Assembly: GCA_025800105.1 (NCBI GenBank)
Contig: JAOXSG010000131.1
Location: forward strand, 21,233-85,232
Direction of reading: 5' to 3'
DNA: 64,000 bases
Source of the DNA: Cohaesibacter sp.
Lineage (GTDB): Bacteria; Pseudomonadota; Alphaproteobacteria; Rhizobiales; Cohaesibacteraceae
Part shown: positions 5,084 through 10,408 of the stretch, in pieces
Layout of the letters: every line of letters starts with the position of its first letter
Numbering within the stretch: the first letter of the stretch is position 1
Program-made: the position numbers and the translations under genes
The notes under the pieces: model-generated
Seen by the model: the letters and a program-made list of their open reading frames with translations, nothing else
The model's database searches: none
What the model was told of the DNA's origin: nothing

Positions 5084-6232
5084 GTGATGAATAAGACATT
5101 CAATGATTTGATTCATTCTGTTTATGATGCGGCTGCCGATCCCCGGTTATGGCCGGATGTTCTGGATCAATGTGCGTGGTTTGTTGGGGCGCGCAGTTGT
5201 GCGATTTTTGATTTTTCACCAGATGATGCAGCCCAGCATCTTGCGCCTTCCTATATGTGTGCGTCTTTTGATGCCAGCTTTCTGGAGCGCTATAATCAGC
5301 AGCATCTTGAGCAGGAATTTTCTGACAGGCTTCTTGCCCAAAAGCTTGTTTCAAGGTCTGATGTGATTGAGGCGATCAGTGATGAGCTTGTTTATGAGGA
5401 TTATCAGGAATTTCTGAGCCGGGCGAATATCAGATCCCTGATGGAGATTGGTCTTCGGCATCGGGTTATTGCGTTCTTGAACAAGGACAATCTGAATAGC
5501 GCACAATTCACCTTGCAATATCAAAATGGTCGGGGGCCAGCTGCGCCTGATGAATTGGCACATTTGAATATGCTGTTGCCTCATATTGCCAAAGCGATTG
5601 ATTTGGGCAGACCTGCACGGCAATTGTCGTTTGAGCATCAGAGCTTGTTGGCGGCAATGGATCGGCTGACCATTGGGGTTTGTATTCTGGATTCGAATGG
5701 CTGCGAGGTTTTGGCGAATGATGAATTTAAGCGGCAGCAGTCTGTTTATAAAACGCTTTTGAGCACCCCCAATGGCGTGCTTCACTTCACCCGTTCTGAG
5801 GATCAGGCGATTTTTGAAAGCCTAAAGCAGGATGCAAGCAAACATGGTCAGTTTGGTGCGCGGCCTCGCAAGGAAGCCATTGCTACCGATGCTGAGAGTT
5901 ATTTGTGTATCGAGGTTTTGCCTTTGGCCCGATCTGAGGAAATGGGTTCAAAGCCTTTAAATGGGTTTGCTGTGTTTAGCACGGATACGGGCTTGCCGTT
6001 CAGTTGTAATATTCCGGCCATTCAGGCGGCCTATGGATTGACGGATGCAGAATTTGCGCTGGTGGATGCGATTGCCGAAGGGCTGACCAATACACAAATT
6101 GCAGAGCGCCGCGGGCGCTCGGTTGCGACCATCAATTCTCAAGTTAAATCCATTCTCTTTAAAACCCAATGTTCTACGCGGACGCAATTTGTGCGGTTAA
6201 TGATGACATTTAATGGCCATTATCTGGCCTAA
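5084..6232 (+). CDS. LuxR-family (helix-turn-helix) transcriptional regulator
   Basis: C-terminal LuxR HTH: YGLTDAEFALVDAIAEGLTNTQIAERRGRSVATINSQVKSILFKTQCSTRTQFVRL. The N-terminus is not an obvious acyl-homoserine-lactone-binding domain. Confidence 0.85.
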   Translation: MMNKTFNDLIHSVYDAAADPRLWPDVLDQCAWFVGARSCAIFDFSPDDAAQHLAPSYMCASFDASFLERYNQQHLEQEFSDRLLAQKLVSRSDVIEAISDELVYEDYQEFLSRANIRSLMEIGLRHRVIAFLNKDNLNSAQFTLQYQNGRGPAAPDELAHLNMLLPHIAKAIDLGRPARQLSFEHQSLLAAMDRLTIGVCILDSNGCEVLANDEFKRQQSVYKTLLSTPNGVLHFTRSEDQAIFESLKQDASKHGQFGARPRKEAIATDAESYLCIEVLPLARSEEMGSKPLNGFAVFSTDTGLPFSCNIPAIQAAYGLTDAEFALVDAIAEGLTNTQIAERRGRSVATINSQVKSILFKTQCSTRTQFVRLMMTFNGHYLA

Positions 6233-7903: not shown

Positions 7904-8042
7904 TGGCCGTTGCTTTTCTGTCTGGTTTCTCTCTCATCTTATCATGGCACAAAATAGGACTTGCGGCAATTGGTAACAGATGATATCAATATAGTAACAA
8001 ATGAAACTAATTTATTGACTTGTGTCTTGGGAGGATCAAGAG

Positions 8043-8600
8043 ATGAATGGGAGTTTGAAGGTGGAGCAAATCCACCATGTGGCCTATCGTTGCAAGGATG
8101 CGAAAGAAACCGTTGAGTGGTATACCAAAAATCTCAATATGGATTTTGTGCTTGCGATTGCTGAGGATTTCGTTCCCTCAACGCATGAGCCTGACCCCTA
8201 TATGCATTTGTTTCTTGATGCCGGGCAGGGCAATGTCCTTGCCTTTTTTGAATTGCCGACCAAGCCAGAGATGGGACGGGACGAGAATACCCCCATTTGG
8301 GTGCAGCATATTGCGTTCAAGGTCAAAGATCGTGAAACGCTGGTTGCGTTCAAAGAGCAGTTGGAAGCCAATGGCATTGATGTGTTGGGGGTGACGGATC
8401 ATTCCATTTTTCATTCGATTTATTTCTTCGATCCCAATGGACATCGCATTGAGCTGGCCTGTCCTGATCCGGCTGAGGAAGAAAAATTGAAGCGGCTGGA
8501 TACGGTAAAATGGCAGATGCTGGAAGAATGGTCCAAGACCAAGCGCGCGCCCAAACATGCAGAATGGCTGCATGCTAAAGAGCTCGAAGGCGTTGAATAA
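8043..8600 (+). CDS. VOC-family (glyoxalase/dioxygenase-fold) protein
   Basis: VEQIHHVAYRCKDAKETVEWYTKNLNMDFVLA ... WVQHIAFKV ... FFDPNGHRIEL. Confidence 0.85.
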   Translation: MNGSLKVEQIHHVAYRCKDAKETVEWYTKNLNMDFVLAIAEDFVPSTHEPDPYMHLFLDAGQGNVLAFFELPTKPEMGRDENTPIWVQHIAFKVKDRETLVAFKEQLEANGIDVLGVTDHSIFHSIYFFDPNGHRIELACPDPAEEEKLKRLDTVKWQMLEEWSKTKRAPKHAEWLHAKELEGVE

Positions 8601-8617
8601 ATGCTGTTTCTATAAGA

Positions 8618-8753
8618 GCCTGATTTAAAAGTCCTAAGCCAGCCCACTCCCCCTCCCAAGCCACCCGTCATGGTATCCTCGTGGGCGGTTTGGGAGGGGG
8701 AGTGGGCTGGATATGCGGCCTAAAAGTCTCAGCATGAGACTTTTAAATCGGGC
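8618..8753. repeat. Nested inverted-repeat element (REP/MITE-like)
   Basis: Outer arms 8618-8633 GCCTGATTTAAAAGTC and 8738-8753 GACTTTTAAATCGGGC (15/16). Inner perfect 21-bp arms 8639-8659 CCAGCCCACTCCCCCTCCCAA and 8690-8710. Separate palindrome 8722-8744 AAAAGTCTCAgcaTGAGACTTTT. Confidence 0.85.
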
Positions 8754-8797
8754 ACTAAGTGATCCGGTTTCAAATTGAGTGAGTGAAAGAAGGACCC

Positions 8798-10408
8798 ATG
8801 CTCAAGACTTATGATGCGCCCGTTTATGATTATGTTTGCTCACAGGAGCAAAAAAACGGGCAGGTGAAACGTCATCCTGTTGTGGTGATTGGTGCGGGGC
8901 CTGTTGGCTTGACGGCGGCTTTGGATTTTGCCCAGCAAGGCATTGAGGTTGTTGTTCTGGATGACAATAACACGGTGAGTGTTGGCTCGCGTGCGGTGTG
9001 TTATGCCAAGCGCCCCTTGGAGATTTGGGATCGCCTTGGCTGTGGCGAGCGGATGGTGGCCAAGGGGGTTGGCTGGAAATTGGGGAAGGTCTTTTTCAAG
9101 GACAAACTTGCCTATCAGTTTGATTTACTTGGGGAAGATGGCCATAAAATGCCCGCTATGATTAATCTTCAGCAATATTATCTGGAAGATTATCTTGTTG
9201 ATCAAAGCAAGCTTGATGATCAGATTGAGTTGCGCTGGAAGCATAAATTGATCGCGATTGAGCAGCATGATGATCATGCAACGCTCACGGTGCAAACCCC
9301 CGATGGGGTGTTTCAAATGGAAGCAGACTGGGTGATTGGCTGTGATGGGGCCAATTCGGATTTGCGCTCCATGATTGGTGCCGATTTTACCGGCCATTTT
9401 TTCATGGATCGCTTTTTGATTGCCGACATCATTATGAAAGCGGATTTTCCACCTGAGCGCTGGTTCTGGTTTGATCCGCCTTTTCACCGCAATCAATCCG
9501 CGCTTTTGCATCGACAGCCCGATAACGTCTGGCGGCTGGACTTTCAATTGGGCTGGGACTGCGACCCTGAGGAAGAAAAGCGCGAAGACAATATCATTCC
9601 GCGGGTCAAGGCGATGTTGGGTGAGGATGTCGATTTTGAGCTGGAATGGGCGTCTGTCTATCAATTTGCCTGTCGTAGGATTGATCAGTTCCGCCATGGG
9701 CGGGTGATTTTTGCTGGTGATTCTGCCCATCAAGTCTCTCCCTTTGGCGCGCGCGGGGCCAATACGGGCATTCAGGACATTGATAATCTGGGCTGGAAGT
9801 TGAAGCTGGTTCTGGATGGTGTGGCATCGGAGCGTTTGATTGACAGCTATCATGAGGAACGCTCTTTTGCAGCCGATGATAATTTGCTCAATTCTACGCG
9901 CTCTACGGATTTTATTACGCCAAAGTCAAAGGGCAGTCGCTTTTATCGCGATGCGGTGTTGGAGCTGGCGGAAATGACGGATTTTGCCAAGCCTTTGGTC
10001 AATTCCGGTCGTTTGTCCAAGCCAACGCCTTATGTGCATTCTTCGCTCAATAGTGTTGATGAGGATGCCTTTGACGGTGATATGGCGCCGGGCACCAATT
10101 GCGTGGATGCTCCCATTACTTTGGCAGATGGTGATGGATGGCTGCTCAATCAGCTTGGCAAAGGCTTTGTGCTTTTGGTCTTTGGCGACAAGCCAATGGA
10201 CAAGATAAATCTGGCAGGGCTTGAGGTGAGGGTGCTTTGTGTCGGTCAGGATTTGCAGGATGTGCAAGGGCTGGTGCGCCAGCGCTATGGTGGCAAAGAT
10301 GGCACCACTTATCTTATTCGCCCTGATCAGCATGTGGCAGCACGCTGGCGCAATTTTGATAGGACCAAGATTGAAGCCGCTGTTAAGCGGGCCATTGGCG
10401 GCATCTGA
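8798..10408 (+). CDS. FAD-dependent aromatic monooxygenase, MhpA/PheA-type
   Basis: VVVIGAGPVGLTAALDFAQQGIEVVVLDD, DWVIGCDGANSDLR, GRVIFAGDSAHQVSPFGARGANTGIQDIDNLGWKL. Confidence 0.88.
   Translation: MLKTYDAPVYDYVCSQEQKNGQVKRHPVVVIGAGPVGLTAALDFAQQGIEVVVLDDNNTVSVGSRAVCYAKRPLEIWDRLGCGERMVAKGVGWKLGKVFFKDKLAYQFDLLGEDGHKMPAMINLQQYYLEDYLVDQSKLDDQIELRWKHKLIAIEQHDDHATLTVQTPDGVFQMEADWVIGCDGANSDLRSMIGADFTGHFFMDRFLIADIIMKADFPPERWFWFDPPFHRNQSALLHRQPDNVWRLDFQLGWDCDPEEEKREDNIIPRVKAMLGEDVDFELEWASVYQFACRRIDQFRHGRVIFAGDSAHQVSPFGARGANTGIQDIDNLGWKLKLVLDGVASERLIDSYHEERSFAADDNLLNSTRSTDFITPKSKGSRFYRDAVLELAEMTDFAKPLVNSGRLSKPTPYVHSSLNSVDEDAFDGDMAPGTNCVDAPITLADGDGWLLNQLGKGFVLLVFGDKPMDKINLAGLEVRVLCVGQDLQDVQGLVRQRYGGKDGTTYLIRPDQHVAARWRNFDRTKIEAAVKRAIGGI

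Follow-up and report, generated by a model that had tools for sequence, protein, structure and literature searches.

A very probable MITE with IS5-family ends and an internal GC-rich hairpin between a VOC gene and a monooxygenase gene of Cohaesibacter

Insertion sequences of the IS1031 group use TNA targets, leave exclusively 3-bp repeats and have an end starting GAACCTG (PMC12016507), and the groups IS427 and IS1031 overlap (PMC2516522). Template switching between inverted repeats, in turn, homogenises their arms and inverts their spacers (PMC8604942), and it maintains hairpins by multi-base compensatory changes (PMC8794818). Here we compare with these systems a nested inverted repeat of a Cohaesibacter genome, located in the window, i.e. 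the whole 64,000-nucleotide stretch of DNA that was analysed. We consider this feature very likely to be a complete MITE copy with IS5-family (most likely IS1031-group) ends, moved in trans and with a hairpin inside. The features of the locus are:

8022..8600, + strand: upstream gene, glyoxalase/VOC-family protein (PF00903, 60.7 bits; 192-aa ORF, start approximate)
8613..8615, unstranded: left target-site duplication TAA, equal to the 3 bp at the right flank
8616..8755, + strand: whole MITE copy, 140 bp
8616..8633, + strand: left terminal inverted repeat GAGCCTGATTTAAAAGTC, 18 bp, common to IS5-family element ends
8639..8666, + strand: left arm of the GC-rich core hairpin
8667..8682, + strand: loop of the core hairpin
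8683..8710, + strand: right arm of the GC-rich core hairpin
8721..8745, + strand: subterminal palindrome TAAAAGTCTCA-gca-TGAGACTTTTA, with a ~5-nt loop that varies, overlapping the right outer arm
8738..8755, - strand: right terminal inverted repeat, GTGCCCGATTTAAAAGTC in minus-strand reading, 18 bp
8756..8758, unstranded: right target-site duplication TAA
8798..10408, + strand: downstream gene, FAD-dependent monooxygenase (PF01494, 210 bits; NF006002, 840 bits)

The nested inverted repeat reported in the initial annotation is present in all its parts: the outer arms (8618-8633 and 8738-8753) are matched at 15/16 positions and extend to 18-19 bp (8616-8633 and 8738-8755), the core arms of 28 nt each are 93% complementary and include a perfect 21-bp inverted repeat, and the palindrome overlaps the right arm. 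The RNA fold of the element (-96.8 kcal/mol vs. -52.8 +/- 3.9 for shuffled sequences, z = -11.3, equalled by 0 of 200 shuffles) is far beyond chance. The same annotation had judged that this does not look like a simple terminator, in agreement with the count of zero intrinsic-terminator patterns (a short GC stem and then a run of T) in 8500-8850; no sigma-70-like promoter pattern occurs within the element. It is the only copy of the MITE in the window.

A genome-wide search for copies, proposed along with that description, was productive: the whole unit matched at ~40 places in the window's own genome (G000; 3.57 Mb, 1224 contigs, 65% complete), where the terminal-repeat pattern, with up to 2 mismatches allowed, yielded 79 matches vs. 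1 for the reversed control. Since several contigs of G000 stop within a copy, these repeats probably helped to fragment the assembly. Among 17 congeners, the MITE is present in three (G002, G006 and G007) and not in the other 14, G007 being the richest with 216 terminal-repeat matches in 3.4 Mb; outside the genus, the whole unit was not found among 385 genomes drawn from the class. In total, 93 both-ended copies were extracted, and an alignment of 20 copies showed abrupt element boundaries. Most copies are 136-145 bp long, with further classes of 45-46, 62-65, 119, 128 and 148-164 bp, and 30 of 34 are intergenic by a simple ORF rule, in flanks with ~80% ORF coverage. Spread of the core on plasmids was rejected, as the whole element gave only weak matches in the plasmid search, to one Sphingomonas and one Novosphingobium record, and the core alone gave none at E 0.01. 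A text search of the published literature for the core and end sequences returned no relevant paper. Among the matches listed for G002, the largest contig (C1, 2.2 Mb) has no copy and C2 (0.76 Mb) has most of them, so in that genome the MITE may be limited to secondary replicons or to a single region. Another repeat, ~105 bp long and likewise dispersed, contains two hairpins (TAGAGCATATTTTTCGAAAAATG...TTATTCAAAATGCTCTA); it was observed at L205 ~5386-5490 (G000:C462:20885-20989) and is abundant in G007, with several copies in G002.

Identical 3-bp flanks, nearly all of them TNA, border 52 of the 93 copies, whereas permuting the right flanks among copies gave a mean of 22.3 and a maximum of 38 in 20,000 trials. 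The agreement holds for 3 bp specifically: a 2-bp test gives 9 copies and a 4-bp test 1. Lack of an exact duplication in the remaining 41 copies would be expected of old copies, and also of rearranged ones. In the closest relative, G007, the window locus is empty: the same two genes are present, with flanks 94-95% identical, and the sequence at the empty site is TCATCA, not plain TAA. The gap between the two genes is thus short in G007 and ~140 bp longer here through the element. A 6.4-kb stretch of contig C462 carries three G000 copies missing from G007, and one G007 copy is missing from G000; the first of the three adjoins an older terminal-repeat remnant, the second is locally scrambled and the third corresponds cleanly to a single TTA at the empty site. 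Elsewhere, two genomes carry a copy at the same site (L020:353 / L132, L026 / L092 and L023 / L089), and at L023 / L089 the whole element lies at the same target in opposite orientation, which is compatible with independent insertion. Lone terminal-repeat remnants (GAGCCTGATTT...) were also seen directly beside the copies at L008, L011 and L189, all at right flanks, as if insertion had been repeated, or loss incomplete, at one place.

Sequence comparison indicates that the mobilising transposase probably belongs to the IS5 family, IS1031 group. On contig C584 of G000, a terminal repeat identical to that of the MITE and preceded by TAA leads into an IS5-family transposase fragment (PF13340, 88 bits) with a truncated reading frame; behind it stands an IS66-type element, named from its sequence. 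A broken IS5-family relative with the same ends occurs in G007, and complete IS5-family elements were found in G010 (931 bp, TCA duplication) and G003 (929 bp, TTA duplication), both free of MITE copies. The transposases of these two elements score 258-262 bits against NF033580, the NCBIfam IS5 model, and exceed the cut-offs of PF13340 and PF01609. MITE ends and the ends of IS5-family elements in the genus differ by 0-4 mismatches; outside the 18-bp ends, the MITE is unlike the IS. The TNA duplication, seen in the MITE copies and in both complete elements, points to the IS1031 group. An active source of the transposase is missing, because no intact copy with MITE ends was found in G000 (65% complete), G002, G006 or G007. 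As a side observation, the set next to the broken transposase with MITE ends (L064, G000:C584, 322-2676) is IS66-like and comprises three ORFs.

Cumulatively, the element is short, multi-copy and without a transposase gene, has terminal inverted repeats with fixed ends and a target-site duplication, is matched by an empty site in a relative and has ends in common with autonomous IS. What had appeared as an odd hairpin is now a dispersed mobile element with known ends, a known target and a likely transposase family. We propose that the transposase recognises GWGCCYGATTTAAAAGTC, cuts and duplicates a TNA target and moves the MITE in trans, the catalysis being deduced from these traits. Inside its ends the MITE carries the GC-rich core, a hairpin that is also dispersed independently. 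After insertion, template switching between the hairpin arms during replication would keep the arms matched and flip the loops, and loss of the middle would shorten some copies to a 45-bp palindrome, as patterns among copies and orthologous sites suggest. The site L020 / L132 holds a 65-bp remnant in G000 and a 45-bp palindrome in G007, which suggests that the perfect 45-bp palindromes form on the spot when a copy loses its middle. Collapse in place is the simpler reading because L132 shares its site with the G000 remnant, and for the same reason independent transposition of the 45-bp palindromes is disfavoured.

In the class-wide search of 385 genomes, matches beyond the genus were confined to the core (query positions 26-103) and came from four genera that belong to four further families. 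Core matches numbered 44 in G142, 22 in G246 and 11 in G216, figures in which one hairpin may count on both strands, the core being palindromic. The flanks of these cores bear no relation to the MITE ends and vary from genus to genus, and the 14 MITE-free congeners contain no core match. Other alphaproteobacteria thus have the core hairpin as a dispersed repeat in its own right, and because it recurs there with unrelated flanks, MITE ends and core are separable modules. In the decayed G002 copies L332, L333, L335, L336, L337, L340 and L341, an extra palindrome (CCCGAAAAGTTGCAGACTTTTCGG) stands between the core and the right end; the element therefore takes up further hairpin modules. In G246 (L303, L304, L313, L318) and G142 (L213, L305), the core was observed among repeated 21-25-bp motifs (GGATCTACCCCATGCGCCCATC), direct and inverted, on both sides of it. 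The common core suggests that short hairpin repeats can combine with different mobile shells in different genera. A stronger proposal, that the core is a widespread selected alphaproteobacterial hairpin with its own function as RNA or DNA, enclosed in genus-specific repeat shells and with the IS1031-type MITE as its vehicle here, we regard as unlikely. In old G002 copies the core is better conserved than the rest, but these copies were found by their core, so this is no evidence of selection.

Covariation in the stem was assessed on 46 cores from five families. Of the cells in 27 pairs, 95.0% are paired, and pairing falls to 62-65% when the partner is slid by one base; changes on both sides affect 11 pairs and 74 cells, vs. 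19.4 cells in shuffles, a signal that partly reflects relatedness and was scored on a structure taken from one of the 46 sequences. Pairs mostly change on both sides together, and wobble intermediates are few, as in column pair 9-73 (UA 31, GC 8, AU 6, and no one-sided standard pairs). Moreover, 17 of 76 copies, spread over all three copy-rich genomes, have a loop that runs the opposite way with respect to the ends. For 10 of these 17, the copy with the most similar sequence outside the loop has the other loop orientation, a weak comparison over ~110 bases. This suggests that the loop may have flipped repeatedly. In an orthologous hairpin of another genus (G213/G306), the stem is unchanged and the ~16-nt loop inverted, between flanks that are ~85% identical, and the small palindrome at L020 / L132 likewise has its 5-nt loop in opposite orientations in G000 and G007. 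We think it likely that template switching explains arm homogenisation and loop inversion with one mechanism. The covariation is accordingly no proof of RNA function, because template switching in replication yields the same homogenised arms and inverted spacers.

The competing account that survives best, though we find it rather doubtful, attributes the loop inversions to faulty assembly or to ordinary homologous recombination. The G000 assembly is indeed fragmented, with contigs ending within copies, and recombination between inverted arms would be expected to give the same product; yet flips also occur in G002, an assembly 99% complete with contigs of up to 2.2 Mb, as well as between the orthologous sites of the other genus, and the core arms measure only 24-30 bp. 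Arms of this length are short for homologous recombination.

More weakly placed, and in our judgment improbable, is the interpretation of the hairpin as a selected RNA regulator that attenuates, processes or stabilises a VOC-monooxygenase transcript, with the mobile ends incidental. The element sits between the VOC stop (8600) and the monooxygenase ATG (8798), with both genes on the same strand, and any read-through or cotranscribed mRNA of the two would gain a very stable hairpin, which could attenuate the monooxygenase, be cut by RNase III or have no effect. Such a regulator would fit this position between two same-strand genes, the fold (z = -11.3), the strong arm covariation across five families and the recurrence of the core in other genera. 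Set against this are the distribution of copies over every arrangement of neighbouring genes (10 convergent, 15 tandem, 5 divergent and 4 within ORFs, n = 34), and the whole-pair swaps, few wobbles and loop inversions, for which DNA template switching accounts with no need for selection. Further, because the insertion is absent from G007 at this locus, the element is not an ancestral regulator of the monooxygenase. The window has no Rfam match at the gathering threshold, and a known structured RNA family was dismissed, since the sub-threshold matches, mostly to microRNA hairpin models, merely reflect a long hairpin. We consider it extremely improbable that the element is a REP or REPIN and was moved by a tyrosine (Y1) transposase of the REP-associated kind: its palindromes, its dispersal and its mostly intergenic position (30 of 34 copies) would agree with this, but its ends are common to DDE-transposase IS, and we rejected a REP/RAYT origin on the lack of a Y1_Tnp (PF01797) match in G000 (65% complete; the model matches 5 of 14 control genomes) and on the clear 3-bp TNA duplication.

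The initial suggestion of a REP/MITE-type repeat therefore holds in its MITE half, with ~40 genomic places, fixed ends, TNA duplications, an empty site and IS5-family ends, and is not supported in its REP half, as the accompanying search for a REP-associated transposase gave no Y1_Tnp match in the 65%-complete genome and a TNA duplication is present. The alternative in the same annotation, a processed RNA hairpin controlling the monooxygenase, might apply, but template switching at the DNA level can account for the pairing. REP/REPIN elements (PMC3116915, PMC3733652) resemble this MITE in being palindromic, dispersed and mostly extragenic; the MITE differs in its TNA duplication and IS5-type ends, and the Y1 transposase was not found. 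The CIR repeats of Caulobacter and Brucella (reviewed in PMC2229807) are likewise intergenic, ~110 bp long, built of hairpin arms and found in several alphaproteobacterial genera, but by their description they are set apart by two arms with a linker and a GANTC motif at the loop, whereas the core of the MITE is one long GC-rich hairpin. MITEAba12 of Acinetobacter, as far as the parts of its report consulted here describe it (PMC6382973), is similarly short (113 bp) and non-autonomous, with 16-bp terminal repeats, ends in common with a resident IS held to mobilise it, and ~90 copies, 40% with duplications; it differs in its 9-bp duplications and its IS (ISAba12), and those parts mention neither a separate hairpin passenger nor inverted loops or collapsed palindromes. 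With the IS1031 group of IS5 (e.g. ISLrh, PMC12016507) the MITE has in common the 3-bp TNA duplication and ends beginning GARCCTG, and the complete relatives of ~930 bp in the genus have an NF033580-type DDE transposase, whereas the MITE is without a transposase gene and has only its ends in common with the IS. Finally, arm homogenisation and spacer inversion are traits in common with template-switch hairpins (PMC8794818, PMC8604942), which were described in RNA genes and in yeast coding DNA, whereas here the pattern extends across dozens of copies of one bacterial repeat. Covariation of this kind is usually taken as proof of RNA function, and the MITE family, in which arm homogenisation and loop inversion stand side by side in dozens of hairpin copies, represents a natural replicate experiment that makes measurable how often template switching, as opposed to RNA selection, is its source.
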